A DNA stretch of 40,836 nucleotides from Pseudomonadota bacterium (GTDB lineage: Bacteria > Myxococcota_A > UBA9042). A program made the position numbers and the translations under genes. The notes under the pieces were generated by a model. That model made no database searches. It was given only the letters and a program-made list of their open reading frames with translations, and was not told where the DNA came from. Location: positions 1 to 40,836 of the forward strand of contig SXRM01000191.1 of assembly GCA_005792545.1 (NCBI GenBank). Direction: 5' to 3'. Positions 7,201 through 32,953 of this stretch are shown here, one piece after another (the first letter of the stretch is position 1; every line of letters begins with the position of its first letter).

Positions 7201-10200
7201 GACTGCAATGACGCCGACAAGGCCATCGCGCCCAACCTGGCGGAACAGTGCCAGGACAAGAAGGACAACGACTGCGACAAGCTGGTCGACGAAGAGAACT
7301 GCCAGGGCTGCGTCACCTACTACAAAGACGGCGACGGCGATGGCTTTGGTCTGACCACCGACAAGAAATGCCTGACCGCGGCGAGCTTGCCCTACGCGGC
7401 CACCCAGTCCGGCGACTGCGCCGACGGCAACAAGCTGGTCAACCCCAAGGCACCCGAAGTGTGTACCACGGTCGGCGTCGACGACGACTGCGACGGCAGC
7501 ACCGACGAGGCAGGCGCGGGCAACTGCAAGAACTTTTACACCGACGGCGACAAGGACACCTTTGGCGTCGGCACGGCGCAGTGCCTGTGCGCAGCGACTG
7601 GCATCGTCACCGCCAGCAAAGACGGCGACTGCGACGACAAGGATGGCAACGTCAACCCGGCTAAGCCCGAAGTGTGTGGCAACGGCAAAGACGACAACTG
7701 CGCGGCCGGCGAGAGCGACACCGGCGGCCAGGGCTGCGTCAACTATTACAGCGACGGCGACGGCGACGCCTATGGCACCGGTAGCGCCAAGTGCATTTGC
7801 GCGCCGTCCGGGGCATTTACGGCCAAGCTGGGTGGCGACTGCGCCGATGGCGACGCTTCCATCAACCCCGGCCAGGTCGAAAAGTGCTTGGATACCAAGG
7901 ACAACAACTGCGCCGGCGGCACCGACGAGGCCGGCTGTCAGGGCTGCCAGAACTACTTCAAGGACGCCGACCAGGACAACTTTGGCCTCGACGCCGACAA
8001 ACAGTGCCTGGGCAAGTCGGCGTACCCGTACACCGCGTTCGTGGGCGGCGACTGCAACGACGACCCGGCCAAGGGCGGCGCCAACGCCAAGCCGGGCTCG
8101 CAGGAGCTGTGCAACAGCATCGACGACAACTGCGATGGCCAGACCGATCCGACCGGCACCAGCGGCTGCCAGAACTTCTACCCGGACGGCGACAAAGACG
8201 GCTACGGCGCCCAGGTCAGCGCGCTGTGTCTGTGCAAGGCCTCGACCACCTACACCGTGACCGTCACCGGTGACTGCAACGACGGTGCGGCAGCGGTCAA
8301 CCCCAAAGCCACCGAGGTCTGCGACGGCCAGGACAACAACTGCAATACCCAGGTCGATGAAGGCGTGCAGAAGACCTTCTACAAAGACGAAGACGGCGAC
8401 GGCTACGGCGGGCCGACCTCGCAAATCGCCTGCACCGCGCCGAGCGGCTTCGCGGCAAGCGCCGGTGATTGCAACGACTTCAACAAGAAGATCTACCCCA
8501 AGGCCCCCGAGGCCTGCAACGACATCGACGACGACTGCGACAGCCAGATCGACCAGGGCGTCGCCACCCAGGCCATCTACAAAGACAACGACGGCGACGG
8601 CTTTGCTGCGCTCGGCGCCAGCACGCAGAACAAGTGCAACGTGCCGGTCGGCTGGACCATTGCCAAGGACATCAACGGCGACAAGAAGAACGACTGGGAC
8701 TGTGTCGACAGCGACTCTGCCGTGTACCCTGGCGCCCCCGATCTGTGCGGCGACGGCAAGGACAACGACTGCAACGGCTCAGCCGACAAGTTGTGCTATT
8801 CCGAGTGTGCCGGCACCTGGCCCTTCAAGCTGCAGTTCGCGTCCGGCAACGCCTCGTCGCGCCTGGTGGACACCGACGGCGATGGCAACTACGAGGTGCT
8901 TGTCCAAGACAGCTTTGGTTTCGCCATCTTGAACACGATCGGTCAGCCGATGTACAACTACAGCAAAGAGTCCTACAACTTCTCGCGCAACACCGCGACA
9001 ACTGCCGATGTCGATACCTACGACGTTTACGGCGCGGGCATCCAGAAAGTGGAGATTGTCACCGGTAACGGCAGTCGAGCGCGCATCTACAAGGTGCTCG
9101 ACGACAGCACCGTGCAAGTATTCGAGAATCCCACCGAGCAGGTCTTCGACGCGACCAAGCATCTGGTCGCGGACATCAACTACGACGGTCAGCCCGAACT
9201 CATTTACCAGAACTGGTGCGACAAGACCGCGGGCACCAAGCTGTTCCGCTTCGACAAAACCAAGGGCACCGTCGATCTGGTCAGCAAAATCCCGGACCCG
9301 GACGGCGTTTGCCAGTATTACGGCCGGACGCTCACCGACCTGAACGGCGACGGCGTCGCAGAACTGCTGGTCAGTAACGGCTACCCGGGCGACGGCATGG
9401 CGTTGTCGACGGGTACTTGGGGTGGCCACCTGTTCGCCTACAAGTGGACCGAGGTACCCAAGGGCATGGTCGCCGACTACTGCACCCCGGCCGGTTCGTG
9501 CTTCAAGACCGACATCGCCAACTTGTTCGGCATCTACGGGACCAACAACGTTTTGCGCATCGGCAACAACATCGTGGCGCAGATGGTCTACTCCGCGACC
9601 AAGGTCAACGGACAGCCCAACGTCACGCAGTCGCAGTACTGGACGTTTGACCTGGCCGGCAAGCCGCTGCCCGGATCGCCGACGTCGACCGTGGTGCCGG
9701 TTTTTGCGCCAACTGACGTCGATGACGACGGCGTGGTCGAAAACGTCGGCTCCGTGCAAGACATGGGCCTGTTTGACGTCAACGGCGACGGCTTTCCAGA
9801 TCAGCTGAGCAGCGGCGGCTCCGAGCTGCGGCTCAATCTGTGGGATCCCGCCAAAAAGGCCTTCGTCGAGCACGTGCCTAGCCGCCTGGCCGTCACCGGC
9901 ACCGCGATTTCGCTGCGCAGCGCTTGGGACATCAATGGCGACGGCACCTTGGAGGTGACCTCGGCCGACAGCGCCGGTAAGGTGTACTGCCACACGCTCG
10001 GGCCATCGACCTGGAACAAGAAGTCGGTGTTGCCGCCGCACCTGCCGATGTACCAGCGCACCAACCAGTGGGACAACTATGAGCCCAACGGCGGCGCCGA
10101 CACCAACGGCGACGGCGTGCCCGATCAGGTCATCCGCGTCGCCTCGGCCATGACCCGCCGGGGACACTTCTACAGCTACCTGTCGAACGCCGCCGACCAG

Positions 10201-10506
10201 GACTTCTACCAGGTCGACACCGCCTGGGGTGGCAGCATCTGCTTGCAAGCGCCGCAGAACCGGGCCTATACGCTCAAGGTCTACGCGCTGGCCGACAAGA
10301 TCAACAACGCCACCAAGGTCGCAGGCGCCGACGGCAAACCGGACGGCTTGCTGTGGACGGGTACCACGCCGACCGGCAGCCAGGTGTGCTTCAGCGGCAG
10401 CAGCACGGTGCCGACCCGGCATGGCGAGTACAAGTTCATCGTCGGTGTGTCGAGCTCGGTGGGATCGTCGGCGTACTGGCCGTACTGGCTGCACATCAAT
10501 AAGTAG
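4225..10506 (+). CDS. Giant lipoprotein: thrombospondin type 3 repeats, MopE-type metal-binding repeats, FG-GAP/VCBS-like propeller
   Basis: A 2093-residue protein. Residues 1-21 form a lipoprotein-type signal with Cys in LANGC; the lipobox is not ideal. A Cys-rich region (about 90-300) is followed by about nine thrombospondin type 3 repeats (315-655; D-x-D-x-D-G and DNC, with runs of consecutive Asp), which bind calcium in other proteins. Residues 660-1530 hold twelve and a half MopE-type modules, each C-N-G-x-D-D-N-C-D-G ... D-G-D-G-x-G ... C-x-C ... GDCNDxD ... P. Copper or calcium is the ligand in characterised relatives. From about 1525, D-x-N-x-D-G-x-x-E motifs (for example VDTDGDGNYEV, LTDLNGDGVAEL, WDINGDGTLEV) indicate an integrin-like beta-propeller. 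It is probably an extracellular surface or adhesion protein; ligand and partner are unknown. Confidence 0.9.
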   Translation: MRTARTGIYSLCAIAVLANGCGDDVPLEKPAAVDVTANVDTAGGGVEALSQDDSVAEAAAAEDVAAETTALDTAGVDANAASVPCETNEQCPSGACLLTPEGKLCAIPCIDKCAADYDCKQTGGADVQFVCVHQAPYRCTVCKTDAECDGGKNGKKGVCVDMGQGAHCMQDCADGGACIGAGFQCQKAPSGQQACVPPGGSCPCPDGKVGACAATNAFGTCKGTHICSGGKSGACNAPAAASETCDLQDNDCDGQIDESVVEGECDLVNVYGTCKGKTLCVAGKSLCQGTNAAAEVCNGIDDNCSGTTDEGSADSDGDGVADCVDKDDDQDGVPDDADNCALALNTAQTDTDGDKQGDACDDDDDNDKVSDAQDNCALYFNATQTDTDGDGKGDTCDCDLDGDGAGNTGSGCTPETAPDNCLVAANADQLDSDQDGKGDACDDDDDNDNVKDADDNCPLVANTDQVNTDKGAFGDVCDDDDDNDGVLDSADNCPLFANPTQTNFDGDQQGDDCDDDLDGDNVANTIDNCPGTPNPDQVDANTNKVGDACENDWDSDTIANDNDNCPWTANASQVDTDVDKKGDACDCDADDDGVANLAADCSPPAKADNCTLVANKGQEDLDKDGKGDACDADKDGDGDPDSSDCKPLDKAISHSAKEACNGNDDDCDGQTDEQDAAGCKPYYYDGDGDGAGVTLVKCLCKAAAPYSAAVAGDCNDQNDDIFPAAKEVCANGQDDNCNGSENDENAIDCKVYYLDKDADGAGAATSKCLCTQAGDFTAKGKGDCNDADAAISPAQTEQCKDSKDNDCNGQTDEAGCKGCTTYYKDADGDGFGVVSDTKCLSGAGSGYTALKSGDCNDADKTVSPVATEACNGKDDNCDGGIDETGATGCKAYYQDEDKDGFGTGVGQCLCKAAGLMTSVTPTDCNDKDLAVNPSKAEVCGNGKDDNCKGGESEENAASCKAYYLDGDGDGVGVATSKCLCAPLGQYSATGQGDCNDADKAIAPNLAEQCQDKKDNDCDKLVDEENCQGCVTYYKDGDGDGFGLTTDKKCLTAASLPYAATQSGDCADGNKLVNPKAPEVCTTVGVDDDCDGSTDEAGAGNCKNFYTDGDKDTFGVGTAQCLCAATGIVTASKDGDCDDKDGNVNPAKPEVCGNGKDDNCAAGESDTGGQGCVNYYSDGDGDAYGTGSAKCICAPSGAFTAKLGGDCADGDASINPGQVEKCLDTKDNNCAGGTDEAGCQGCQNYFKDADQDNFGLDADKQCLGKSAYPYTAFVGGDCNDDPAKGGANAKPGSQELCNSIDDNCDGQTDPTGTSGCQNFYPDGDKDGYGAQVSALCLCKASTTYTVTVTGDCNDGAAAVNPKATEVCDGQDNNCNTQVDEGVQKTFYKDEDGDGYGGPTSQIACTAPSGFAASAGDCNDFNKKIYPKAPEACNDIDDDCDSQIDQGVATQAIYKDNDGDGFAALGASTQNKCNVPVGWTIAKDINGDKKNDWDCVDSDSAVYPGAPDLCGDGKDNDCNGSADKLCYSECAGTWPFKLQFASGNASSRLVDTDGDGNYEVLVQDSFGFAILNTIGQPMYNYSKESYNFSRNTATTADVDTYDVYGAGIQKVEIVTGNGSRARIYKVLDDSTVQVFENPTEQVFDATKHLVADINYDGQPELIYQNWCDKTAGTKLFRFDKTKGTVDLVSKIPDPDGVCQYYGRTLTDLNGDGVAELLVSNGYPGDGMALSTGTWGGHLFAYKWTEVPKGMVADYCTPAGSCFKTDIANLFGIYGTNNVLRIGNNIVAQMVYSATKVNGQPNVTQSQYWTFDLAGKPLPGSPTSTVVPVFAPTDVDDDGVVENVGSVQDMGLFDVNGDGFPDQLSSGGSELRLNLWDPAKKAFVEHVPSRLAVTGTAISLRSAWDINGDGTLEVTSADSAGKVYCHTLGPSTWNKKSVLPPHLPMYQRTNQWDNYEPNGGADTNGDGVPDQVIRVASAMTRRGHFYSYLSNAADQDFYQVDTAWGGSICLQAPQNRAYTLKVYALADKINNATKVAGADGKPDGLLWTGTTPTGSQVCFSGSSTVPTRHGEYKFIVGVSSSVGSSAYWPYWLHINK
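5161..6190 (+). repeat. Thrombospondin type 3-coding repeat tract
   Basis: Tandem codon blocks dominated by GAC, coding for DNCP, TDTDGDGKGDACD and DDDDDND-like motifs, repeat with a spacing of roughly 36-40 residues. The Asp runs are encoded by consecutive GAC triplets, so the tract is prone to assembly error and slippage. It also creates a long false open frame on the opposite strand. Confidence 0.8.
6202..8317 (+). repeat. Higher-order tandem repeat: three-module (A-B-C) MopE units
   Basis: Counting from the first Cys of each A module, units begin at 6202 (C660), 6832 (C870), 7462 (C1080) and 8110 (C1296), giving spacings of 210, 210 and 216 residues. Each unit holds three different modules of about 70 residues. 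A has a G-x-x-G-C after the Asp loop, B has an acidic ES/SEN stretch, and C has KDNxC ... TDEAGCxGC. The order runs ABC-ABC-ABC-A, then two divergent modules and a partial one. Growth by duplication of a triplet unit is the simple reading. Confidence 0.8.
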
Positions 10507-13244: not shown

Positions 13245-16200
13245 ATGACCGGCAAGCCTCTGTCCTTCCCCATCATCAGGGCAACGCCCCTGTGGTTGCT
13301 GTTGCTGATTGGCGCGCAAGCAATGGCCGCAGATCCCCCCGCGCCCTTGCCCGCAGCCGCCACGCCGACCGCGCTGGAAGCCGGCATGGCTGAAGCTAAC
13401 CGCTTGCACGGCGAAGCGCTGAAGCTGGCCCAGGCCGGCAAGCTTGCCGAGGCGCTGGCGCTCTACCGGCAGATTCCGCCCATTCTCGAACGCATCCGCG
13501 GCCCCAACCACCCCGACGAGGCCCGCGCCTGGACCACGATTGGCTACCTGTACACCAAAGCGGGGGACCTGGCCGCGGCAGAGGCGCCGTACCGCAAGGC
13601 GTTGGCGATTCGCGAAAAGGCGTTCGGACTGGAGCACAGCGAGGTCGCGATTGCGCTGTCGAACCTGGCGACCTGGCACGAGGCGCGCGCCGATTACGCC
13701 GGCGCCGAACCGCTTTACCGTCGCTGTCTGGCGATTCTGGAAAAGGCGCTCGGCCCCGACCATGGCGAAGTGGCGATTGCGCAGAACAACCTGGCGCTGG
13801 TGCTGTTCACGCGCGGCGACCTCGACGGCGCGGAGGCGATGTTTCGCAGGGCCTTGGCGACACGCAAGAAGCTGCAGGGTCCAGAACACGCCGAAGTTGC
13901 GCTGAGCCTGAGCAACTTGGGGCGCGTGCTGGAGACCAAAGGGCAGTTCGCCGCCGCGCTGGCGCTGTTTCAAGAGGCCCTGGCCATTCGCGAAAAAGCC
14001 TTTGGGCCACATCACCTGCTGGTGGCGCGGATCCTCAACAACATCGGCGCCCTGGCCAAGACAACTGGCGACTACGCACAGGCCGAGCGGATGTTCCGCC
14101 GGGCGCTGGCGATTCGCGAAAAGGCCCATGCCGGCGATCATCCCGAGGTGGCGGAATCGGTCAACAACCTGGCGACGCAGCTGGAGTCGCAGGGCGACTA
14201 CGCGGGCGCTGAACCGCTGTATCGGCGCTCGCTGGCCATGTGGGAGCGCCGCCTCGGGCCCTGGCATCCCGACGTGGCCGCCAATCTCAACAACCTCGGC
14301 AACCTGCTGGAAGCCAAAGGCAACTACGCCGACGCCGAGGCATGCTACCTGCGCGCACTGGCCATCAAGGAAAGGGCCTTTGGCAAGGACCACGCCGACG
14401 TCGCACTGAGCCTGAACAACCTGGGTCGCATGATCCTGACCAAAGGCGACCTCGACAGCGCGCAGCCAGTGTTCGAGCGAGCATTGGCGATTCGCGAGAA
14501 GGCGCTGGGACCGGAACATCCCGAGACGGCGATTGCGATTGCCGACCTTGCGGCGCTGCACGAAAGCCAGGGCAGGGTGGCGCAGGCCGAAACGGGGTAT
14601 CGTCGGGCGCTGGGCATCCGCGAAAAAGCGCTGGGCCCTCGCCACCACGAAGTGGCCTATTCGCTGGGCCAGCTGTCGCACCTGTTGCAGGCCCGCGGCG
14701 ACTACGCCGGCGCCGAACCGTTGGCGCGGCGGGCGCTGGCTATTCAGGAAGCGGCACTGGGCGCTCAGCATCCGGATGTCGCGGCGAGCCTGCTGGACCT
14801 CGCCAGCGTGGTCGAGGCGCGCGGCGATCTGACGACGGCCCGACCGCTGCATGAACGGGCATTGGCCATTCGCGAAGCGACCTTTGGCGCTGGCCATCCC
14901 GCTGTCGCCGGCAGCTTGTCGGGACTGGCGGTCCTGCACCATGTCGCCGGGCATCCGCGCGATGCCTTGCCGTTGGCGGAACGTGCAGCGACGATTCGCG
15001 AGAGCCACCTGGCGACCGTGCTCGGCGGCGGCTCCGAGGCGCAAAAACTGGCCTACGTCGCTACGCTGGCCCGCGATACCGATCTAGTGGTGGCGCTCCA
15101 CGCCGACGGCATGCCCAATGACCCAGAAGCGGCGCGGCTGGCGGCCCAGACCGTCTTGCGTCGCAAGGCCCGGGCTTTGGACGCGATGACCGAGACGCTG
15201 GGCGCCATCCACCACAGCGGCGATCCGGCACTGACCGCCCAATTGGCCCGCTGGAAGGACCTGCACGGGCAGCACGCCACGCTGGTCCTGCGCGGTCCAG
15301 GGTCGCTGCCGCGGCCAGCCTGGCAGCAGCGCATCGCTGACTTGCAGACCCAGGCGCGCCAGATTGAAGGCGAACTGTCGGCCAAAAGCGCCCAGTTCAA
15401 GCGTTCGGCCGAACCGGTGACGCTGGCGGCCGTCCAGGCCGCGCTGCCCGCGAAAACCGTGCTGGTCGAATTGCTGGCGGTTCGGCGCTTTGACCCCAAG
15501 GCCGCGCCCCGTCAGCGCCTGGGGGCGGCTCGCTACCTGGCTTGGGTCATCGCCGCCGCTGGGCCGCCGCGGCTGGTGCCGCTCGCCAGCGTGGCCGAGC
15601 TGGATCCGCTGGCCGACGCCCTGCGCACCGCGATTGCGCGCCGCCGCCCCGACGACGAAGTAGCAGCCTTGGCGCGCAAAGTGGGCGCGGCGGTGTTGGA
15701 CCCGCTGCGGCCCGCGCTCGGCGATGCTTCGCATCTGGTGGTGTCGCCGGATGGGGCGCTGTCGCTCATCCCGTTTGCCGCGTTGATTGGCGCTGACGGC
15801 AAGGCCGCGGTCGAGGCGTTTGACATCACCTACGTGTCTTCGGGCCGCGACCTGCTGCGTTTGGCGACCCGCTCGACGCCGCGCGCGCCAGCGCTGGTGT
15901 TTGCCAATCCGGCCTACGACGACGCTGGCGACGCTGCGCCACCTAAGCCTGCGCCGGTCCGCCATCGGTCGCTGTCGCGCGACTTGGACCGCGGGTCGAT
16001 GGCGTTTTCGCCGCTGCCGGGCGCGGAAGCCGAGGCCAAGGCCATTGCGCCGCTGCTCGCCAGTTCGCAACTGCGAGTCGGTGCGGCGGCGCGCGAGACC
16101 GAGCTCAAAGCCGTGCATGGCCCCGCGATTCTGCACATCGCCACCCACGGCTTTTTTCTGCGCGACCTGCCCGAGAGCGCGTCAGGCCAGCCGGCCAGCC

Positions 16201-16709
16201 GCGGTGCCGCGGTTTTTGGCGACGATCCGATTCCGCTAGCTGCCCCGGCCACGGCAACTGCTAAGCCAGTCCGCTGGGAGAACCCGCTGCTGCGCTCCGG
16301 CATCGCCCTGGCCGGTGCCAACCAGCGCCGCTCGGGCGACGACGACGGCATCCTGACCGCGCTAGAAGCTTCGGGTCTGGATCTGTGGGGGACGCGCGCC
16401 GTGGTGCTGTCGGCTTGCCAGACCGGTGTCGGCGAGTCGCGAAGCGGTCAGGGCGTGTTTGGCCTGCGGCGCGCGCTGGTGCTGGCGGGTGCGGAGACGC
16501 TGGTCATGAGCCTGTGGGATGTCGACGACGACGCCACCAAGGACCTGATGGTGGCGTGGTACAAGCGGATTCGTGCGGGCGAGCCGCGTGGCGCCGCGCT
16601 GCGGGCGGTGCAGTTGGAGATGCTGCGCGGCAAGCGCGGCGGTGGCCAGTGGCGGCACCCGGCGCTGTGGGCGGCGTTTGTGGCGATTGGCGATTGGCGG
16701 GGGTTGTGA
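13245..16709 (+). CDS. Exported TPR-CHAT protease
   Basis: A 1154-residue protein. A signal peptide (hydrophobic WLLLLIGAQAMA, cleavage about residue 29) is followed by twelve TPR units of exactly 42 residues (about 86-589; pattern NNLA..L...GDYAGAEPLYRRALAIREKALGPEHPEVA), kinesin-light-chain style. A helical linker then leads to a CHAT caspase-like domain (about 800-1154). The catalytic pair is visible: His968 in HIATHG and Cys1058 in LSACQTG, followed by GVFGLRRALVLAGA and SLWDVDDDAT. CHAT proteases cleave target proteins, and the TPR superhelix normally senses a partner, as in Csx29 of type III-E CRISPR, where the protein is cytosolic. Here the signal peptide puts it outside the cytoplasm. 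The ATG at 13245 has AAGG 6 bases upstream. It stands alone, convergent with the next gene. Confidence 0.9.
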   Translation: MTGKPLSFPIIRATPLWLLLLIGAQAMAADPPAPLPAAATPTALEAGMAEANRLHGEALKLAQAGKLAEALALYRQIPPILERIRGPNHPDEARAWTTIGYLYTKAGDLAAAEAPYRKALAIREKAFGLEHSEVAIALSNLATWHEARADYAGAEPLYRRCLAILEKALGPDHGEVAIAQNNLALVLFTRGDLDGAEAMFRRALATRKKLQGPEHAEVALSLSNLGRVLETKGQFAAALALFQEALAIREKAFGPHHLLVARILNNIGALAKTTGDYAQAERMFRRALAIREKAHAGDHPEVAESVNNLATQLESQGDYAGAEPLYRRSLAMWERRLGPWHPDVAANLNNLGNLLEAKGNYADAEACYLRALAIKERAFGKDHADVALSLNNLGRMILTKGDLDSAQPVFERALAIREKALGPEHPETAIAIADLAALHESQGRVAQAETGYRRALGIREKALGPRHHEVAYSLGQLSHLLQARGDYAGAEPLARRALAIQEAALGAQHPDVAASLLDLASVVEARGDLTTARPLHERALAIREATFGAGHPAVAGSLSGLAVLHHVAGHPRDALPLAERAATIRESHLATVLGGGSEAQKLAYVATLARDTDLVVALHADGMPNDPEAARLAAQTVLRRKARALDAMTETLGAIHHSGDPALTAQLARWKDLHGQHATLVLRGPGSLPRPAWQQRIADLQTQARQIEGELSAKSAQFKRSAEPVTLAAVQAALPAKTVLVELLAVRRFDPKAAPRQRLGAARYLAWVIAAAGPPRLVPLASVAELDPLADALRTAIARRRPDDEVAALARKVGAAVLDPLRPALGDASHLVVSPDGALSLIPFAALIGADGKAAVEAFDITYVSSGRDLLRLATRSTPRAPALVFANPAYDDAGDAAPPKPAPVRHRSLSRDLDRGSMAFSPLPGAEAEAKAIAPLLASSQLRVGAAARETELKAVHGPAILHIATHGFFLRDLPESASGQPASRGAAVFGDDPIPLAAPATATAKPVRWENPLLRSGIALAGANQRRSGDDDGILTALEASGLDLWGTRAVVLSACQTGVGESRSGQGVFGLRRALVLAGAETLVMSLWDVDDDATKDLMVAWYKRIRAGEPRGAALRAVQLEMLRGKRGGGQWRHPALWAAFVAIGDWRGL

Positions 16710-22491: not shown

Positions 22492-25400
22492 TCATTTCAC
22501 GACCAGCATCACGGTCGCCATCGCCAGACCGCCGCCTTCGGGTTTGGGAAACAGCATCCGCCGAAAACGCTCGGTCACGCACTGCACCACGGGTGTCGCG
22601 GTCAGGGTCAGCTTCGGCGTGGTGACGGCGAGTACGGTGCCTTCGGGCGAGATCGCCAGCTGCACGCTGACCATGCCGCTTGCGTTGGTGCCGCGCACTG
22701 CCTCCCGCTCAACACAATACCGCAGCTGACCCAGGTTCCGCATCACGATTCGGCGGACGACTTCAGGCGGCAAACCGCCGCTGACCTCGACGCTGCCGAG
22801 CACGACACGCGGGGCCTCAACCTCGCTATCGCCGGCGCCGGCCTTGCGTAATGCCAGGTTGGCGTCGCCGTAGTAGACATACGCCAGGTAGGTCGGATCG
22901 CCGGTCGCCGCAAAGCGCGCGCGCACCTGGCGGACTGCTTCCGAGACCAGGGCTCCGTCTCTGGACAGTGCCGACTGATAGAACGCCGCCGCCGCCTCTG
23001 ATGCCGCTTTGTCGCCCAACGGCCACAGGCCGCCGATGTAGCCGCTGGCACCGGTCTCGAGCACCGCCGGTCCCCAGCCGTCGACAAAACCGGCGGTGCG
23101 CTCGGCGCGGCCGATTTCGCAGGCGTTGAAGAACACCAGCGGGTGCGCGCCGCCCCAGTTGCCCGACAGGCCCTTCCAAGCCAGCAGCGGCAGTTCACGG
23201 TCGGCGAGCTTGATGGTGAACTCGGGCGAGGCTTTGTCGGCTTGCGCGCTGGCCTGGCCGTGGCCGGCGAAGTGCACCAGGCTGACCGACGTGGCCTGCT
23301 TACCCGCAACCAGGTCCTTGACCGCAGCGAAGTCGCCGGCCAGCTTGCGAAACCGGTTGGTGCTCGCACCGGCGATCGCCTTGAGTTCGGCCTCTTGGGC
23401 TGGCAGGGATGCCGCGGCCTGGTAGCTCGGCGCCACCACGTACACGCCAGCGACCTCCAGCTGGGGCGGTGGGCGACTGAGCACCTGGGTACCAGCGGTG
23501 ATGTGCCAGCGGGCGATCCGGTAATCCACGCCAAGAAAATCGGTCTCGCCCCCGCCCGGCTTGGGTGCGACCAGCAGCTCCCACGGCAACCGCGGGTTGT
23601 TGGTGTAGATTTGGATGGCGCGCAGGTTGCCGCCGAGCTGGCCGAGCAGCGTCGCCAGTGCCTGCTTGAACAACAGCGGCGTAGCGTTGGCGTACAGCTC
23701 CTTGCCGAAGCCCCGCAGCATCAGCCGCGTTTCCTCTGCGCGATCGATCGGTTGTGCCGCCGCGGGTTCCGTGCCGAATGCCTCCGCGCCTCGCGAGATG
23801 CGCTGCACGAAGCGAGCGTATTGAGCGTCCAAGCGTTGCCCAAGGTCGGCCGGGAACCGCTCGAAGCCTGCGCTGGGCTGCAAGTGCGGGGACTGCACCA
23901 GGATTTGCGCTTCGTCGGGGCGGCTGGGATCGCCGCCCTGCAAGACCCACAGCGTGAGATCCGGCACCGGATCGGCGGCGGCAACATTGGCGGCGACGCC
24001 CTGCACGGCCGCGGGTTTCGGTCTGGCTTGGGGCGCAGCGGGCGCAGTGCTGGCGGCGGCCTCTGCCGGTGCGCCCACCGCGATGGGTTTGCTGACCTTG
24101 GCTAGGAAGCGCCCCTTGAACCAGAACGTGACGAACACATCCGGTGTTCGACCAGAGAGCGCCGCCCGGGCGCGCAGTTGGAACAGCGCCGGCGTCGAGT
24201 CGCCGATTCTGGGCAGGCTGACCTTGGCCATGCTGTCGCCGAGCACATCAAAACCGGGCGCCGCCAGCGCCACGTCGATGGACCACGGCCCCGGCGTGTC
24301 GTCGAGCTCCATCTGCAGCTTGCCCTCGGCGGTTGCCGCGCCCTGCTGGACTTTGACGTCTTGGACCACTTTGAGCTCGGTCAGCGACACCTGTAAGGCA
24401 AAGGTCTGACCGACTTCCGCGCGGTCGGGCGCTTCGAGCGTCGGAAAGCGCTCGACGGGAGTCGGCTTCTTGCGCGCTGGTCCGCGACCGGCGAGGCCGC
24501 CTGCGCCGCTGCCATAGCCACTGCCACTGCCGCCGCCAGCGCCCTTTCCGATCGTGCCCAGGTTGCCAAGGCCGATGGTGCCCTCGCCGCTGCCGCCACC
24601 GCCCTTGCCGGTGCCGCTTAGGCCCAGGCCACCCGAGCCAAGGCTATCGCCGATTTTCTTGTCGAGATCGGGATCGGTTTTGTCTTTGGGGCTGCCACCC
24701 TTGGCACCGCCCGTCGCATTGGCCGAATCGCGCTTGGTCGTGGTGACGGTGGCGCTGCCGCCAGTGCCGGGTGGTGGCGGGGGCTTCTTGGCGTCACCGC
24801 CTTCATCTGGTGGTGGTGGCGGCGGCGGCCCTGCAGACGGCGCTGGCATCACCGGCACTCGCGCAAGAACGACGCCGGCCCGCTTCGTTGCATCCGCCAC
24901 CGGTTCGACCGGTACCAATTGCAAACCGCTGGCGCGGACGCTCTGCTCGACCTCGCCCACCTCGATCTTGCCGTCGGCATTGCGGTCGCCTGGGCCGGTC
25001 AGGGCTACAAGCGCGCTCCACGCTAGCCGCCCGGTCGTCGCTGGCGAAACCACCGCCTGGCCCACGATCGCGCAATCACCGGCACATGCAAGGGGTTGCA
25101 CCCCACCCGCAGCTGGGGCGTCGATGACAGCCACTAGCGGCCCCGCCTTGCGGGCGCGCGCAAGCAACTCCGCAAAGGCATAGGGTTGGGCGGCGCCGGC
25201 GGCCCCAGCTGGCGCGAGAATCAGCTGCCAAGCGCCATCCGCACCGGCACTGCCGCGCGCCAGCACCACGATCCACAGCCGGGCTGGCCGCAAGGCAACC
25301 AGGCGATCCAGTTCCGCGGTCAAGGCTGGCTGCGTCGCCTTTGCGCCAACCACCAGCGCCAGCCGTTCGGACTGAACGCCCTTGCGCAGCAACCAATTCG

Positions 25401-25623
25401 CCCAACCAGCGGCCAGCGCCGCGCCTTGGGCGGCAAGTGGATCGTCTGCAGTGTAGGCCGCAACGAGGAGCGCCGCGTCTGCTTGGGCGTCGGCAACCAG
25501 CGCGCGCGGCGGTTCGGGCACGGCAAACCGTGGGGGTGGCTCCTGACCTGTGACGTCGAGCGCCAGTAGCGACACGGCTACGCCGAACCAGCGGGCCAAG
25601 CGGTTCATCGGCGTCAGAACCAT
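22492..25623 (-). CDS. Pseudo-caspase / EF-hand / Gly-rich / CHAT protease / AgmX-PglI-tail fusion
   Basis: A 1043-residue protein with an N-terminal signal-like segment (RLARWFGVAVSLLALDV). Residues 35-230 resemble a caspase (C14) fold that has lost its catalytic residues: LWIVVLARGSAGADG where the His-Gly would be and VAVIDAPAAGG where the DxCxSG would be. A perfect EF-hand loop follows (D213-R-N-A-D-G-K-I-E-V-G-E224), as in many bacterial caspases. A Pro- then Gly-rich linker (about 255-400; LGLSGTGKGGGGSGEGTIGL, YGSGAGG) is the type found in AgmX-like proteins. A CHAT domain has His788 (VHFAGHG) and Cys835 (FFNACEIG), so it may be active. The last ~90 residues (RNLGQLRYCVERE, FPKPEGGG) match the AgmX/PglI C-terminal domain. 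The ATG has GGAGG 6 bases upstream. It is in an operon behind 25662-27254. Confidence 0.85.
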   Translation of the reverse strand: MVLTPMNRLARWFGVAVSLLALDVTGQEPPPRFAVPEPPRALVADAQADAALLVAAYTADDPLAAQGAALAAGWANWLLRKGVQSERLALVVGAKATQPALTAELDRLVALRPARLWIVVLARGSAGADGAWQLILAPAGAAGAAQPYAFAELLARARKAGPLVAVIDAPAAGGVQPLACAGDCAIVGQAVVSPATTGRLAWSALVALTGPGDRNADGKIEVGEVEQSVRASGLQLVPVEPVADATKRAGVVLARVPVMPAPSAGPPPPPPPDEGGDAKKPPPPPGTGGSATVTTTKRDSANATGGAKGGSPKDKTDPDLDKKIGDSLGSGGLGLSGTGKGGGGSGEGTIGLGNLGTIGKGAGGGSGSGYGSGAGGLAGRGPARKKPTPVERFPTLEAPDRAEVGQTFALQVSLTELKVVQDVKVQQGAATAEGKLQMELDDTPGPWSIDVALAAPGFDVLGDSMAKVSLPRIGDSTPALFQLRARAALSGRTPDVFVTFWFKGRFLAKVSKPIAVGAPAEAAASTAPAAPQARPKPAAVQGVAANVAAADPVPDLTLWVLQGGDPSRPDEAQILVQSPHLQPSAGFERFPADLGQRLDAQYARFVQRISRGAEAFGTEPAAAQPIDRAEETRLMLRGFGKELYANATPLLFKQALATLLGQLGGNLRAIQIYTNNPRLPWELLVAPKPGGGETDFLGVDYRIARWHITAGTQVLSRPPPQLEVAGVYVVAPSYQAAASLPAQEAELKAIAGASTNRFRKLAGDFAAVKDLVAGKQATSVSLVHFAGHGQASAQADKASPEFTIKLADRELPLLAWKGLSGNWGGAHPLVFFNACEIGRAERTAGFVDGWGPAVLETGASGYIGGLWPLGDKAASEAAAAFYQSALSRDGALVSEAVRQVRARFAATGDPTYLAYVYYGDANLALRKAGAGDSEVEAPRVVLGSVEVSGGLPPEVVRRIVMRNLGQLRYCVEREAVRGTNASGMVSVQLAISPEGTVLAVTTPKLTLTATPVVQCVTERFRRMLFPKPEGGGLAMATVMLVVK

Positions 25624-25661: not shown

Positions 25662-27254
25662 CTACTTGACCGTCCCGACGAGCACCGCACCCAGCGCCGA
25701 GAAGCGGATGCCGATGGACGCGGATTCCTTGCCGCCGTCGCCGTCTACATCGATGTCGAGGACCAGAATCTGCGCGATGAGGTCCAGGACTTCTTTCTTG
25801 CTCAGCCCAAGGCCGGCAAACAGGCTGGCGTCCACGGCGTTGACCATGTCCAGCACGGCGGTCTGCGGCACCGCACCACCTAGCACGCCCTGCAAGCTGA
25901 CGATGGTCTTCTTGTCGGCGGCGAACTCGACAGTGCCGTGAATTCGGGCGCCTTTGACATACAGCGTGGCGTCCTTGGCCCCGAGCAAGTCGGCGTCCAT
26001 GGCGAACACGGTGTCCTTGGTGCCCGCCGTGACCTTGCCGTCCTTAACCGTGGCGTCGCTGAACGAAAACTTGGGCTTGCATTGCGCGGTCAAGGCGGAC
26101 TGGCCGACCTGCCACTTGCAGACGTCGCCATTGAGCTTGCAGTTGGCCTGCTTGGATTCCTGCGCCATCTCGGCGTAGTAGAGGTTCAAAGTGAATGGAA
26201 CGCCCTCGCCGACGTAGCCCGCGAATTCGGCGACGAACGTCAGCGTGCCCTCGTTGACGCCATTGATGAGCGGCGTGTTGAGAAAGCCCGCGAGCACTGC
26301 TGCGCTGTTGTCGATGCCGTCGGCGCAGTTGCTTTCCGGTGCGCAGGTCTTGGGGTTGCCGTCGACGTCAATGCCCTGGCCGGTCTTGCCCGAAGTGCCG
26401 ATAAGAAACTGTGTGAGCTTGCCGGCGGAGGCCCCGAACAGCAGGTCGCAGGTCGGGCACATCGCGGTCTTGATGCCGACACAGACGCCCCCCGTGCAGG
26501 CGTCGGGCATCGTGCAGGCGACGCCGTCGTCGCAGTTGGCTTTACTGAGCGCATGCACGCAGCCCATGCCGGCCTTGCACGAGTCGATGGTGCATGCGTT
26601 GCTGTCGTCGCAGCCCAGCTTGCCGCTGCCGGCCTTGCAAATGCCGTCCGCGCACACGTCGCCGGTCGAGCACGGATCGCCATCGACGCATGGACCTACG
26701 GCGACCACGGCCTTGCACCCGGCTTTTGCATCGCAACTGTCGGTGGTGCAGGCGTTTTTGTCATCGCAGACGGCAACGGTGCCCGTGCAGGCGCCGGCTA
26801 GATCGCAGACGTCGCCTTTGGTGCAGGCGTTGCCATCGTCGCAGGCCGTGGCGGCAATGCTGAAATCGACCGCGGACTTGCTGGCGCTGCACACGCGGCA
26901 GGGGTCGCCGGCTTTGGCGGCGCCGTCGGCCACACAGCCGCCGCCTGCGACGTTGCACCAGCCCGCTTGGACCTTGTGATCGCAGGTACCGCCCGTGCCA
27001 CAGCTATCGGCCGTGCACGCCAGGCCATCGTCGCAGGCCTTGGGTGTGCCAGCGCAGCCTGCCGCGCCGCATTGATCGCCGGTGGTGCACAGATTGCCGT
27101 CGCCGCACGGTTTGCCAATGGTCGACGAACTGCAAGCGGTGCCGCTATCGGCCCCGGCGTCGCTCTTGGCAGCGGGACTCGGCCCTGGCGCGTCCGCGCA
27201 GGCGACAGCGGCTGCGAGGAATAGACACAAAATCAGGTGGTTGAATCGGTGCAC
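25662..27254 (-). CDS. Cys-rich repeat lipoprotein
   Basis: A 530-residue protein. The start is GTG at 27254, preceded by GGAGG with a 5-base gap; this gives a clean lipoprotein signal (HRFNHLILCLFLAAAVAC). Residues about 45-300 are tandem Cys-rich units of the form CDDGNACTKGDVCDLAGACTG, each about 40 residues with six or more Cys, a Dickkopf-like pattern widespread in myxobacterial surface proteins. A separate C-terminal domain (about 300-530) has GIDVDGNPKTCAPESNCADG, a beta-rich body and a near-terminal LDIDVDGDGGKES Asp loop that could bind calcium. It lies 38 bases upstream of the CHAT fusion on the same strand, so the two are probably co-transcribed and may act together at the envelope. 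Ligand unknown. Confidence 0.82.
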   Translation of the reverse strand: MHRFNHLILCLFLAAAVACADAPGPSPAAKSDAGADSGTACSSSTIGKPCGDGNLCTTGDQCGAAGCAGTPKACDDGLACTADSCGTGGTCDHKVQAGWCNVAGGGCVADGAAKAGDPCRVCSASKSAVDFSIAATACDDGNACTKGDVCDLAGACTGTVAVCDDKNACTTDSCDAKAGCKAVVAVGPCVDGDPCSTGDVCADGICKAGSGKLGCDDSNACTIDSCKAGMGCVHALSKANCDDGVACTMPDACTGGVCVGIKTAMCPTCDLLFGASAGKLTQFLIGTSGKTGQGIDVDGNPKTCAPESNCADGIDNSAAVLAGFLNTPLINGVNEGTLTFVAEFAGYVGEGVPFTLNLYYAEMAQESKQANCKLNGDVCKWQVGQSALTAQCKPKFSFSDATVKDGKVTAGTKDTVFAMDADLLGAKDATLYVKGARIHGTVEFAADKKTIVSLQGVLGGAVPQTAVLDMVNAVDASLFAGLGLSKKEVLDLIAQILVLDIDVDGDGGKESASIGIRFSALGAVLVGTVK

Positions 27255-27360
27255 AGGGACCTCCGTATCGCGCATAGTAGCGCAACGTCGGCCGATCTGG
27301 ACATTGGCGGTGCGCTGGCTACGCTGTGTCTTGTGCGGCACTTGCCGCGGCGCGGTAGCC

Positions 27361-29033: not shown

Positions 29034-31493
29034 TTAGGGTCCGAAGCCACTGACGCTGACCGCCACGCTCTGCGTGCCCGACCCGACCTGGCCCAGGCTG
29101 TTACTGCCCCAGCACAGCGTCTTGCCGCCGGCCGCGACGGCGCAAGTGTGCATGTAGCCGGCGGTGATGGCCGTCGTATTGCCCTGCAACCCCACCACGC
29201 CGCCAGGTGTGTGGCGACCCTTTGAGGTGCCGTCGCCCAATTGGCCCTTGTCGTTGCCGCCCCAGCAGCGCGGTGTGCCCTTGGTGGACAGCGCACAGGT
29301 GTGGTACCAGCCGAGCGCCATCGTTTGGGTGGGCTCGAGCAGCCCGGCGACGGCAACCGCTTTGCCGACGACGCCGCCGGCCGCCACGCCGACCTGGCCC
29401 TGGTTGTTGTGACCCCAGCAGTGAATCGCCCCGTCGGCGGCCTGCGCGCATGCGTGCTCGCGGCCCAGCCACAGGCCTTTCCAGCCAATGCCGGCCTGCG
29501 CGGGTGTGGGCTTGACGATGGCAGGTTCAGCGCTGCCATTGAGCGCGCCGTCGCCGTTGTCGCCCCAGCACCAGATCTCGCCCGGCAACGTCAGTGCGCA
29601 GGTGCGGTCGCCATTGGCCGTGACGAACTTGAAGGTGTTGGCTAGTACGCCGGTGACCACGGTCGGCGCGCTGGTGCCTTGCTTGGTGCCCGTGCCAAGC
29701 TGGCCATAGTCGTTGTTGCCCCAGCAGAGCAGGGCGTCGCCAGGTACCAATGCGCATGTGTGGCGGTGACCCGTCGCGACGATGACGCCGGCGGTGGTGG
29801 CCTTGGGCGGCAAACCGGCGATGCTGAACGGCGTCGGCGACGAGCCCTTGCCCGCCGCGCCCAGTTGACCGTCGTTGTTGTCGCCCCAGCACTTGACCGC
29901 GCCGGCACCGTACCAGCCGCAGTTGTGGTAGCCGCCGCCCTGCAGGGTCTGGATGCCGAGCGGCACCAGAGCACTGGACGTCGGCGTCCACTGGACCACG
30001 GGTGACGGATTGCCGCCTTGCTGAAAGCCGTTGTCTCCCCAGCAGTTCAGGTCCGTGGCCTTGCTGCCGGCACACGTGTGGTACGCGCCAGCGGTCAGGA
30101 ACGCCGCGCCGACCAGCGGCAGCACCACCGGGTCCAGCTTGGCGGTGGCCAGACCGTTGCCGAGCTGGCCGTTGGCCGAGTCGCCCCAGCAGCCAAGGCC
30201 ACCGTTCTTGGTCATGGCGCAGGTGTGCCAGGCGCCGGCCGAGAGCTGGGTCAGCAGCTTGGGCAGGCCGCTGACTTCGATGGGCGACGCGCTTTTGACG
30301 CTGCCGCTGGTTGCCAGCTGGCCGTGGCTGCCGTCGCCCCAGCACATCGTGGTGTCGTCTTCCATCAGCGCGCAGCTGTGGGCCGCTCCGCATGCGATGG
30401 CCATGATGGCGCCGAGCGGCGTCTTGGCTTTGACGGCGGTGACCTTGCTCGACAGGTCGCCAAAACCCAGCTGGCCGTCGTCGTTGGCGCCCCAGCACCA
30501 CACCGAGCCGTCGTTGACCAGCACTGCGCAGGCGTGTTGGGCGCCGACTGCCAACGCTGATGCCGGACCTGGCAAGCCTTTGACTTGCACCGGCGCGTGT
30601 TGTTCGCCGGGTGTGCCGCCGAGCTGCCCCTTGGCGTTTTCGCCCCAGCACAAGACCGAGCCTTTGTCTTCGCGACCGCAGGTAAAGTACTTGCCCGCCG
30701 CGATTTCCTTCCAGAGCAGGCCGCCGCCGACCGCGACGGGCAGGTCTTTGCTAGCGGTACCACCGTCGCCCAACTGGCCGTAGCTGTTGTCGCCCCAGCA
30801 CCAGGCCTTGCCGGCCTTGTCGACGGCGCAGGTGTGGCCCAGGCCCGTGGACAGGCTGCGAACGCCGGGGCCGAGGTTGGTTTGCGTCTGCGGTGCCTCG
30901 GTCTTGGATTTCTTGCCGAGCGCCAGCTGGCCGTCGTCGTTGCGGCCCCAGCACGCGATATCGCCGTTGGCCATGGCCGCACAGGTGTGGAAGCCGCCGG
31001 CGGCGACGTGCGCCACTTTGCCGGTCGGCAGGGCGACCGCGGTGGGCATCTCGATGGCGTCGTTGCTGGCCGTGGTGCCGCACTGGCCAAACGAGTTGTC
31101 GCCCCAGCAGCGCACGGTGTTGTTGGCAGCGATGGCGCAGGTATGGCGGTCGCCGGCTGCGAGGCCTTTGGCTGTCTTGGCGCAGACATCGGCCGGTGCA
31201 CAGGCGGGGGCTGCATCGACTTCGGCGGCGGCATCGGCGGTTTCGGGTTTGGCGTCCGTGACGGCGGCGCCGTCGCCAGCGACCTCTGCGGTGGCTGGGT
31301 TGGCGTCGGCGCCTGTCGCGGCGTCGTCCTCGACGTCGTCGCCGTTGGCGATGGTGAGGTCGCCGGTGTCTTTGGGCTTGATGATTTTGATGCAGGCCTT
31401 GGTGTCGCTGCCTGAGAAGCACGCCGGATCGGGCAGGACCAGCGGCGTGCAAGCGGCGATGGCCAGTAGCGCCAACGCAGCGACTGGCTGCAC
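29034..31493 (-). CDS. RCC1-repeat lipoprotein with fourteen blades
   Basis: An 819-residue protein when started at GTG 31493, giving MQPVAALALLAIAAC, a lipobox (A-I-A-A-C) after an unusually short, uncharged n-region. No better start exists nearby; a TTG inside repeat copy 3 is the alternative. An acidic Ala/Asp linker (about 45-104) leads to fourteen RCC1-type units (about 105-815), each G-x-x-H-T-C-A ... C-W-G-x-N-x-x-G-Q-L-G. As one RCC1 propeller has seven blades, fourteen units predict two complete seven-bladed propellers. Nearly every unit keeps a Cys pair (HTC and CWG) that could form a disulfide in the oxidising envelope, unlike cytosolic RCC1. The function is unknown; protein binding is likely. 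Confidence 0.85.
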   Translation of the reverse strand: MQPVAALALLAIAACTPLVLPDPACFSGSDTKACIKIIKPKDTGDLTIANGDDVEDDAATGADANPATAEVAGDGAAVTDAKPETADAAAEVDAAPACAPADVCAKTAKGLAAGDRHTCAIAANNTVRCWGDNSFGQCGTTASNDAIEMPTAVALPTGKVAHVAAGGFHTCAAMANGDIACWGRNDDGQLALGKKSKTEAPQTQTNLGPGVRSLSTGLGHTCAVDKAGKAWCWGDNSYGQLGDGGTASKDLPVAVGGGLLWKEIAAGKYFTCGREDKGSVLCWGENAKGQLGGTPGEQHAPVQVKGLPGPASALAVGAQHACAVLVNDGSVWCWGANDDGQLGFGDLSSKVTAVKAKTPLGAIMAIACGAAHSCALMEDDTTMCWGDGSHGQLATSGSVKSASPIEVSGLPKLLTQLSAGAWHTCAMTKNGGLGCWGDSANGQLGNGLATAKLDPVVLPLVGAAFLTAGAYHTCAGSKATDLNCWGDNGFQQGGNPSPVVQWTPTSSALVPLGIQTLQGGGYHNCGWYGAGAVKCWGDNNDGQLGAAGKGSSPTPFSIAGLPPKATTAGVIVATGHRHTCALVPGDALLCWGNNDYGQLGTGTKQGTSAPTVVTGVLANTFKFVTANGDRTCALTLPGEIWCWGDNGDGALNGSAEPAIVKPTPAQAGIGWKGLWLGREHACAQAADGAIHCWGHNNQGQVGVAAGGVVGKAVAVAGLLEPTQTMALGWYHTCALSTKGTPRCWGGNDKGQLGDGTSKGRHTPGGVVGLQGNTTAITAGYMHTCAVAAGGKTLCWGSNSLGQVGSGTQSVAVSVSGFGP

Positions 31494-31574
31494 GGCCCAC
31501 CAGGGCAGCCGTTGCGTGGCGATGCGGCAGGCTGGGCTTAGGGCCCCGCCAGGAACTACTCGTTCTTTTCGGTG

Positions 31575-31640
31575 CCCGTTTGCTGGTTGGGTGGGTCGCA
31601 AGCTCGCGTCTTTGCAAGCCGACTCGCCGCTCCCGTGTAT
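31575..31640 (+). repeat. Dispersed intergenic repeat, copy 3 (partial)
   Basis: GTGGGTCGCAAGCTCGCG followed by TCTTTGCAAGCCGACTCG is a close match to the core of copies 1 and 2. Similarity fades on both sides. The core stem has one mismatch here (CGTCTT against AAGCCG). It lies between the RCC1 lipoprotein start and the stop of the TPR membrane protein. Confidence 0.65.
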
Positions 31641-31672
31641 CCACAGCGATCGAGTAATATTGGACAGGCTCC

Positions 31673-32953
31673 TTACCACCGCCACCCCACGACCACGCCG
31701 TTGGTCATCGGCAGCACTTGCACCGCTGCGGGGGCCGTCTTCGGCGCGCGAAGCTGGCCTAGCACCACACCCGTCACCGCCGTCACGCCACCCGTGATAG
31801 CCAGGCCCCAGCCGGCGCTCTGCAGCGTGGCCGCCGACTGCGCGCGGTCCTGGGCCTCGGCATACGTGAAGGGAATGGCCTTGGTCTTGGCGTTGGCAGC
31901 CAAGTGCCCGTGGGTCTGCGTGTCGAGGTTGCGCTCCTGGACCATCCCGACCGTCACCAGGGCCGCTCCGACTACGCCCAGTGCTGCGCCGCCGTACAGG
32001 GCGGCGCGCGGCGCCCACTCGGGGATCGGCAGCGGTGCTCGGGCTGGCTCCGGGTCTGGCGGCGGGTTGCGGCGGCGTTGCTCGGCCAGGCGCTCGGCCT
32101 CGGCGCGCTGGCGCTCGCGCTCCTTGGCTTCGATCTCGTGCTGGAATTGCTGGGCTTTGCGCTCTGCGTCGTCTTCTGCCGCGCGGGCCGCGTCCTCCAC
32201 CGCTTTGCGGGCCGCGTCTTCGGCCGCTTTGCGTTTGCGCGCTTCGTCCAGGGTTTTGAGTCGCTCGGCTTCGGCGCGGCGTTCTGCTGCGGACCTCGCA
32301 GGACCCACGGATCCGATGGCCTTGATGCGCTGCAGTGCGGCTTTGTGCTCGGTCGATCCGGCTGGCGCGAGGCGTGACACCGTCTGGTAGCACTCTGCGG
32401 CCTCGGGCTTCATGCCGGCGCGATCAGCGAGCTCCGCCGCAAGCAACCACGCTTCGACGTTATCCCACAGGATGTCGGCGGCCGTGCGGGCATGGCGGTA
32501 GCCCAGCGCCGGGCTTGGCGATTCGGCGGCGCGGCGCATCAGCCGCTTGGCGCGATCGACCTGCACCTCGCGCAGGTGGGTGCGGGCCAGCGCCACTTTG
32601 TCGGTGCCGCCGCGCGGGTTGCGCAAGAACTCCTCGTAGCGCTCGGCCGCTTCGTCGAGCAGGCCCGCCCGCTCGCTCGCCCGCGCTGCGCTGTACAGCC
32701 ACTCGCCGCGGGTCGGCTCGCTCTGAAAGGCCTGCCAGAAAAGCCCCGCCGCGGTATCGAACTCGCCCCGGTCGTAGGCGGCCTTGGCGCGGGCGGCCAT
32801 CTTTTCGCCATTGGGGTCAGCCACGGCAGTCGTCGGCGCAGCACACAAGGCACACAGTGTCGCAAAGCCCGCCGCGCGCACCACCGCGAATGCGAGGACT
32901 GGAACAAGGGCAGGGCGGCGGGTGGGCGGCAAGGCGTGCTCGGCCGCGAACAC
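31673..32953 (-). CDS. TPR / coiled-coil protein with C-terminal membrane hairpin
   Basis: A 426-residue protein from GTG 32953 (a TTG at 32992 is possible; neither has a good ribosome site). A signal-like segment (about 15-46, ending APTTAVA) precedes TPR-like helices (about 50-215; AAYDRGEFDTAAGLFWQAFQ, AGLLDEAAERYEEFLRN, AGMKPEAAECYQTV). A long charged coiled coil follows (about 220-290; Ala/Glu/Arg/Lys-rich), then a Pro-rich hinge, two membrane helices (about 313-338 and 377-401) with an intervening loop containing FTYAEAQDRAQ, and the tail VQVLPMTNGVVVGWRW. The last parts match the module found in 688-1485 and 27361-28980. It is upstream of the RCC1 lipoprotein on the same strand, separated by repeat copy 3. 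Probably an envelope scaffold; no enzyme motif is seen. Confidence 0.78.
   Translation of the reverse strand: MFAAEHALPPTRRPALVPVLAFAVVRAAGFATLCALCAAPTTAVADPNGEKMAARAKAAYDRGEFDTAAGLFWQAFQSEPTRGEWLYSAARASERAGLLDEAAERYEEFLRNPRGGTDKVALARTHLREVQVDRAKRLMRRAAESPSPALGYRHARTAADILWDNVEAWLLAAELADRAGMKPEAAECYQTVSRLAPAGSTEHKAALQRIKAIGSVGPARSAAERRAEAERLKTLDEARKRKAAEDAARKAVEDAARAAEDDAERKAQQFQHEIEAKERERQRAEAERLAEQRRRNPPPDPEPARAPLPIPEWAPRAALYGGAALGVVGAALVTVGMVQERNLDTQTHGHLAANAKTKAIPFTYAEAQDRAQSAATLQSAGWGLAITGGVTAVTGVVLGQLRAPKTAPAAVQVLPMTNGVVVGWRW

Follow-up and report, generated by a model that had tools for sequence, protein, structure and literature searches.

The gene described here lies in a 40,836-nucleotide stretch of DNA (referred to as a whole as the window) from a lake-type bacterium of myxobacterial kind, and it raises the question of what a single, apparently exported chain does with two caspase-type domains, one of them dead, and with the C-terminal tail of the AgmX/PglI family. 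The best-characterised CHAT proteases are intracellular, with roles in defence or, in the case of separase, in cell division. Each part of the protein (Table 1) belongs to a known family; among the genomes searched, the combination was found in one genus only. The explanation preferred here, which is given roughly an even chance of being correct, is that of an exported CHAT-type cysteine protease placed in the envelope by an AgmX-type Gly-rich block and a two-cysteine tail (SS-tail), to which a dead caspase with an EF-hand was added late.

Table 1. Features of the gene and its predicted product (positions in the window)
Feature	Position	Strand	Basis or remark
Whole gene	22492..25623	(-)	1043 aa ORF; alternative start 25608
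Apparent signal peptide, residues 1-27	25543..25623	(-)	By eye: basic n-region, hydrophobic core, Gly-Gln
Pseudo-caspase domain, residues 41-212	24988..25503	(-)	Profile matches to intact Myxococcota caspases, alignment, fold search
Arg123, catalytic His site of pseudo-caspase	25255..25257	(-)	Alignment
Pro170, catalytic Cys site of pseudo-caspase	25114..25116	(-)	Alignment
EF-hand loop DRNADGKIEVGE, residues 213-224	24952..24987	(-)	Alignment with caspase relatives and homologues
Pro/Lys-rich linker, residues 256-330, fast evolving	24634..24858	(-)	Between-species rates
Gly-rich AgmX-type block, residues 331-376	24496..24633	(-)	79-93% identity between species; pattern as before the tail in L004, L125, L085
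Beta-sandwich (Ig/macroglobulin-like), residues 391-517	24073..24453	(-)	AlphaFold pLDDT ~80; Foldseek to complement C3 and CARDB folds
CHAT domain, residues 678-926	22846..23592	(-)	PF12770 E 2e-20; conserved in 7 homologues
His788 of CHAT, presumed catalytic	23260..23262	(-)	Invariant in homologues
Cys835 of CHAT, presumed catalytic	23119..23121	(-)	Invariant; sole Cys outside two conserved pairs
AgmX/PglI SS-tail, residues 944-1043, Cys970 and Cys1015	22495..22794	(-)	NF033768 E 8e-17; pLDDT 70-90

The true start of the protein may be the second methionine (25608). Regional dN/dS against the homologues in two species of the same genus (G002 and G005) was below 0.4 in nearly all regions of the 1043-residue ORF, all such values being approximate because dS was near or above 1 in the relatives compared. 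Five cysteines are present in the proteins of the window organism (G000) and of G002, namely the pairs 180/184 and 970/1015 plus Cys835, as would be expected in an oxidising compartment where a single catalytic thiol stays free; lipobox-type N-termini were found in the homologues of G017 and G321. The AlphaFold model of the full chain had a mean pLDDT of 50, with the N-terminal domain, beta-sandwich and tail usable and the CHAT domain essentially unmodelled (pLDDT mostly below 50), and the Foldseek matches listed for this model were beta-sandwich proteins. A PDB sequence search with the 1043-residue protein found no structure. A Cys-rich repeat lipoprotein gene (Dicty_CTDC; 25662-27275, reverse strand) lies 38 nt upstream and was considered as an operon partner, but was rejected as it is kept beside the CHAT gene in G002 only; the neighbours differ in G005, G007 and G017, so that no conserved partner gene was found.

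The domain reading of the original prediction was right throughout. The homologue search recovered the full order (pseudo-caspase, EF-hand, Gly block, beta-sandwich, CHAT, SS-tail) in only three species, all of one genus. Among 379 genomes, a sample of the phylum in which unlike CHAT subfamilies could be missed, only 4 chains joining CHAT to the tail were found, all in one genus, and the unit common to all members of the family, beta-sandwich plus CHAT, was present in 8 of the 379. The full architecture was found in one public record (VGRO01000166.1, from a deltaproteobacterial MAG whose isolate name hints at a water-column sample from 65 m), and no paper joining 'CHAT domain' and 'AgmX' was found in the literature searched. 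A maximum-likelihood tree of the beta-CHAT core was rooted on G321, the most distant member (578 residues, lipoprotein-like and without further recognised parts), and gave the topology ((((G000,G002),G005),G001),(G007,G017),G321) with support of 97-100. On this tree the architectures run from an exported or lipoprotein beta-CHAT chain, through the addition of the Gly block and tail, to the addition of the pseudo-caspase, which is missing in G001, a sister species of the same genus; G004 carries yet another N-terminal region. The simplest history would have the Gly block and tail gained at both sides of beta-CHAT within the genus, and the pseudo-caspase after the split from G001.

A Pfam scan of residues 35-235 gave no match, Peptidase_C14 included, and homology to the caspase fold was instead established through a Myxococcota subfamily. 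A profile built from three sequences (the domains of the window, G002 and G005) matched caspase-like proteins across the phylum with a best E of 2.5e-7 per genome (E of ~1e-11 in a small ORF set). Alignment with 13 intact relatives showed matching strands and helices, with the strand before the His site reading W-[IVF]-V and the EF-hand following the Cys site. Among 10 of these relatives scanned with Pfam, Peptidase_C14 scored 21.5 in L115 and 20.5 in L114 against a cut-off of 21.4, the other 8 giving no match. The His site is G-H-G in 13/13 relatives as against A-R-G in the window and G002 and G-P-G in G005, and the Cys site is D-[AST]-C-F in 13/13 as against D-A-P or D-V-P in the pseudo-caspases (D-A-P170-A in the window); the residues required of an active caspase are thus replaced by Arg123 and Pro170, as had been claimed. 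Nor did residues 35-230 model as some other fold: although the model of the N-terminal domain was weak (built from two sequences, those of the window and L034; pTM 0.56), caspase-1, caspase-11, procaspase-1 and Dronc were among its best Foldseek matches, all with E above 0.001 and with other folds mixed in, which supports a caspase fold without proving it.

The predicted EF-hand was found directly after this domain, where the loop DRNADGKIEVGE fits the canonical DxNxDGxIxxxE. The ligand positions are conserved in 3/3 pseudo-caspase homologues, despite no more than 38% identity of the domain between G000 and G005. The Pfam EF-hand model fell below its cut-off in G005 and was not listed for the window protein, and the 22-residue EF-hand stretch had a dN/dS of 0.87 against G005; calcium sensing by the loop is no more than plausible. 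The Myxococcota caspase and EF-hand proteins (L103-L117) are of the same subfamily and also place the EF-hand directly after the caspase domain, but differ in their intact dyad and in their fusion partners (FGE-sulfatase, Sel1 and beta-barrel). Bacterial pseudo-orthocaspases, which are mainly alphaproteobacterial and cyanobacterial, have Tyr/Ser, Tyr/Ala or Phe/Ser at the dyad (PMC6426788); they share with the window domain a p20-like domain with lost His and Cys, whereas the present group has Arg/Pro or Pro/Pro, is apparently exported, carries an EF-hand and is fused to CHAT.

The pseudo-caspase is the fastest-evolving folded part of the chain. In the closest pair its dN was 0.33 compared to 0.05 for CHAT (~5 times faster). 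Its dN/dS ranged over 0.26-0.39 compared to 0.05-0.12 for CHAT, and its identity with G005 was 32-38% compared to 77-79%, comparisons which for the pseudo-caspase rest on only three sequences. These rates, the different replacement of the His site in G005 and the loss of any Pfam match to caspases would all be expected if the domain were the relic of a caspase gene fused at the front of the chain, now dispensable and drifting. This alternative is considered rather improbable, as dN/dS is still well below 1 and the reading frame is kept in all three species together with the fold-type residues, the EF-hand loop and a new C-x3-C pair. Fast evolution together with the kept EF loop and C-x3-C pair is better fitted by an arm binding a partner or substrate, or by an inhibitor, than by a conserved switch.

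The second caspase-type domain was confirmed as CHAT with His788 and Cys835 at the claimed positions (Pfam PF12770, 73.8 bits against a cut-off of 24, residues 678-905). Both residues are invariant in 7/7 homologues reaching them, one of which belongs to another class and is 33% identical. Within the chain, purifying selection was strongest in CHAT and in the segment preceding it (dN/dS 0.04-0.05, closest pair). With CHAT the most constrained folded part and its dyad invariant, a protease is the best reading, its activity being inferred. Most CHAT proteins are not known to have been assayed, and this one has no solved relative by sequence, so that a structural or binding role (e.g. as adhesin or scaffold) might be proposed in place of proteolysis; the invariance of His and Cys as far as the homologue of another class, and the position of Cys835 as the lone unpaired cysteine, make such a role unlikely. 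The His-Cys dyad and fold family are shared with the CHAT proteases, among them the TPR-CHAT protein (Csx29) of Craspase, in which the dyad is H585/C627 (PMC9729208); in contrast to the latter, the window protein is apparently exported, lacks TPR, has a beta-sandwich before CHAT and has no CRISPR partner that could be seen. A second CHAT protein is encoded 6 kb away (13245-16709, forward strand; TPR-CHAT, CHAT E of 1e-75) and also begins with an apparent signal peptide; exported CHAT proteins are therefore not unique to this gene in the genome.

The C-terminal ~90 residues belong to the AgmX/PglI family, as predicted (NCBIfam NF033768, 61.2 bits against a cut-off of 40, residues 953-1033, with both cysteines present). 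The Gly block and tail adjoin in ordinary AgmX-type proteins, the gap being 26-46 residues in L003 and L004 of the same genome and in L085, and are split here by ~560 residues in which the beta-sandwich and CHAT are found. The GxGxxGxGxGGGG pattern of the block is also present in L004, L085, L125 and L128. Block and tail co-occur in 4/4 complete genus members with the gene (G000, G002, G005 and G001; the chain of G004 is cut by a contig end and was left out of this count) and are both absent in 3/3 outside the genus (G007, G017 and G321), of which G007 shows a short run of Gly and Ser matching GltG weakly. Among more distant members the block has changed less than CHAT (93% compared to 63% identity, G000 against G001), which argues for a constrained element and not filler. 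The presence of the tail alone says little on function, since such tails are frequent in these genomes, with 4-11 family matches in each. A VIT-domain protein with a lipoprotein-like start (L125:2063-5791, G004:C212) carries a Gly block and SS-tail in mid-chain, with more sequence after them.

It had been proposed from these features that the pseudo-caspase is a calcium sensor switching CHAT, and that the tail couples the chain to a proton-motive-force motor or to TonB-like transport. The canonical EF loop kept in 3/3 homologues, and a tail family common to GltG and GltJ, of which GltG binds AglR in two-hybrid assays (PMC3169522), speak for this proposal. The AgmX/PglI proteins of that type (GltJ/GltG, NF033768) have the Gly block and two-cysteine tail in common with the window protein, but are transducers with a membrane-spanning helix (PMC5349195). 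No transmembrane helix other than the apparent signal peptide was seen by eye in the window protein, which makes motor coupling unlikely; it also lacks the cytoplasmic FHA/zinc domain, scored 86 bits against a cut-off of 650 for the GltG equivalog, and so does not match a motor-coupled transducer with a single transmembrane helix and a cytoplasmic domain. Coupling to a motor or transport system is further disfavoured by the apparent signal peptide at the start of the chain and by the occurrence of the same block and tail on the exported lipoprotein L125. As to the switch, the CHAT unit occurs without a pseudo-caspase in G001, where the tail is present, and in G007, G017 and G321; absent in a sister species, and changing so much faster than CHAT, the pseudo-caspase is not a conserved controller, and the proposal is regarded as very unlikely. 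Still less credence is given to a reading in which protease and pseudo-protease of the caspase clan form a pair within one chain outside the cytoplasm, calcium on the dead caspase gating CHAT allosterically and the Gly block and SS-tail providing a link to an energised envelope machine.

Under the preferred reading of an envelope-placed protease, the chain would be exported by Sec and form disulfides in the cysteine pairs 180/184 and 970/1015, so that Cys835 alone would remain as a free thiol. The CHAT domain would then cleave an envelope or extracellular protein through His788 and Cys835, and the Gly block and tail would hold the chain in place, or extend across the cell wall to outer-membrane partners, without motor drive. 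The pseudo-caspase, with calcium bound, might bind a partner or substrate or partly shield the CHAT site, and would not be an indispensable switch. The stepwise lineage from enzyme core to envelope module to dead caspase is a natural test series for the AgmX/PglI module outside the gliding motor, as well as for the effect of joining a dead caspase to a live enzyme of the caspase fold in a single chain.

In G002, an exported-looking protein (L118:238-3072, G002:C299) combines an intact caspase (PF00656, 53 bits) with a C-terminal end that weakly matches the SS-tail (27 bits, below cut-off); caspase fold and SS-tail may have come together on more than one occasion. At L101:5057-8046 (G129:C329), an AgmX-tail gene lies directly upstream of, and on the same strand as, a caspase-like gene whose product weakly matches a beta-barrel at its C-terminus; as the only such neighbour pair among the relatives fetched, it was too little to establish a linkage between intact caspases and AgmX-tail genes. 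Elsewhere in the window, a 2093-residue lipoprotein-like chain (4225-10506, forward strand) carries 13 MopE-type metal-binding motifs with thrombospondin-3 and FG-GAP repeats, and an RCC1-repeat protein with a lipoprotein-like start is encoded at 29034-32393 (reverse strand).
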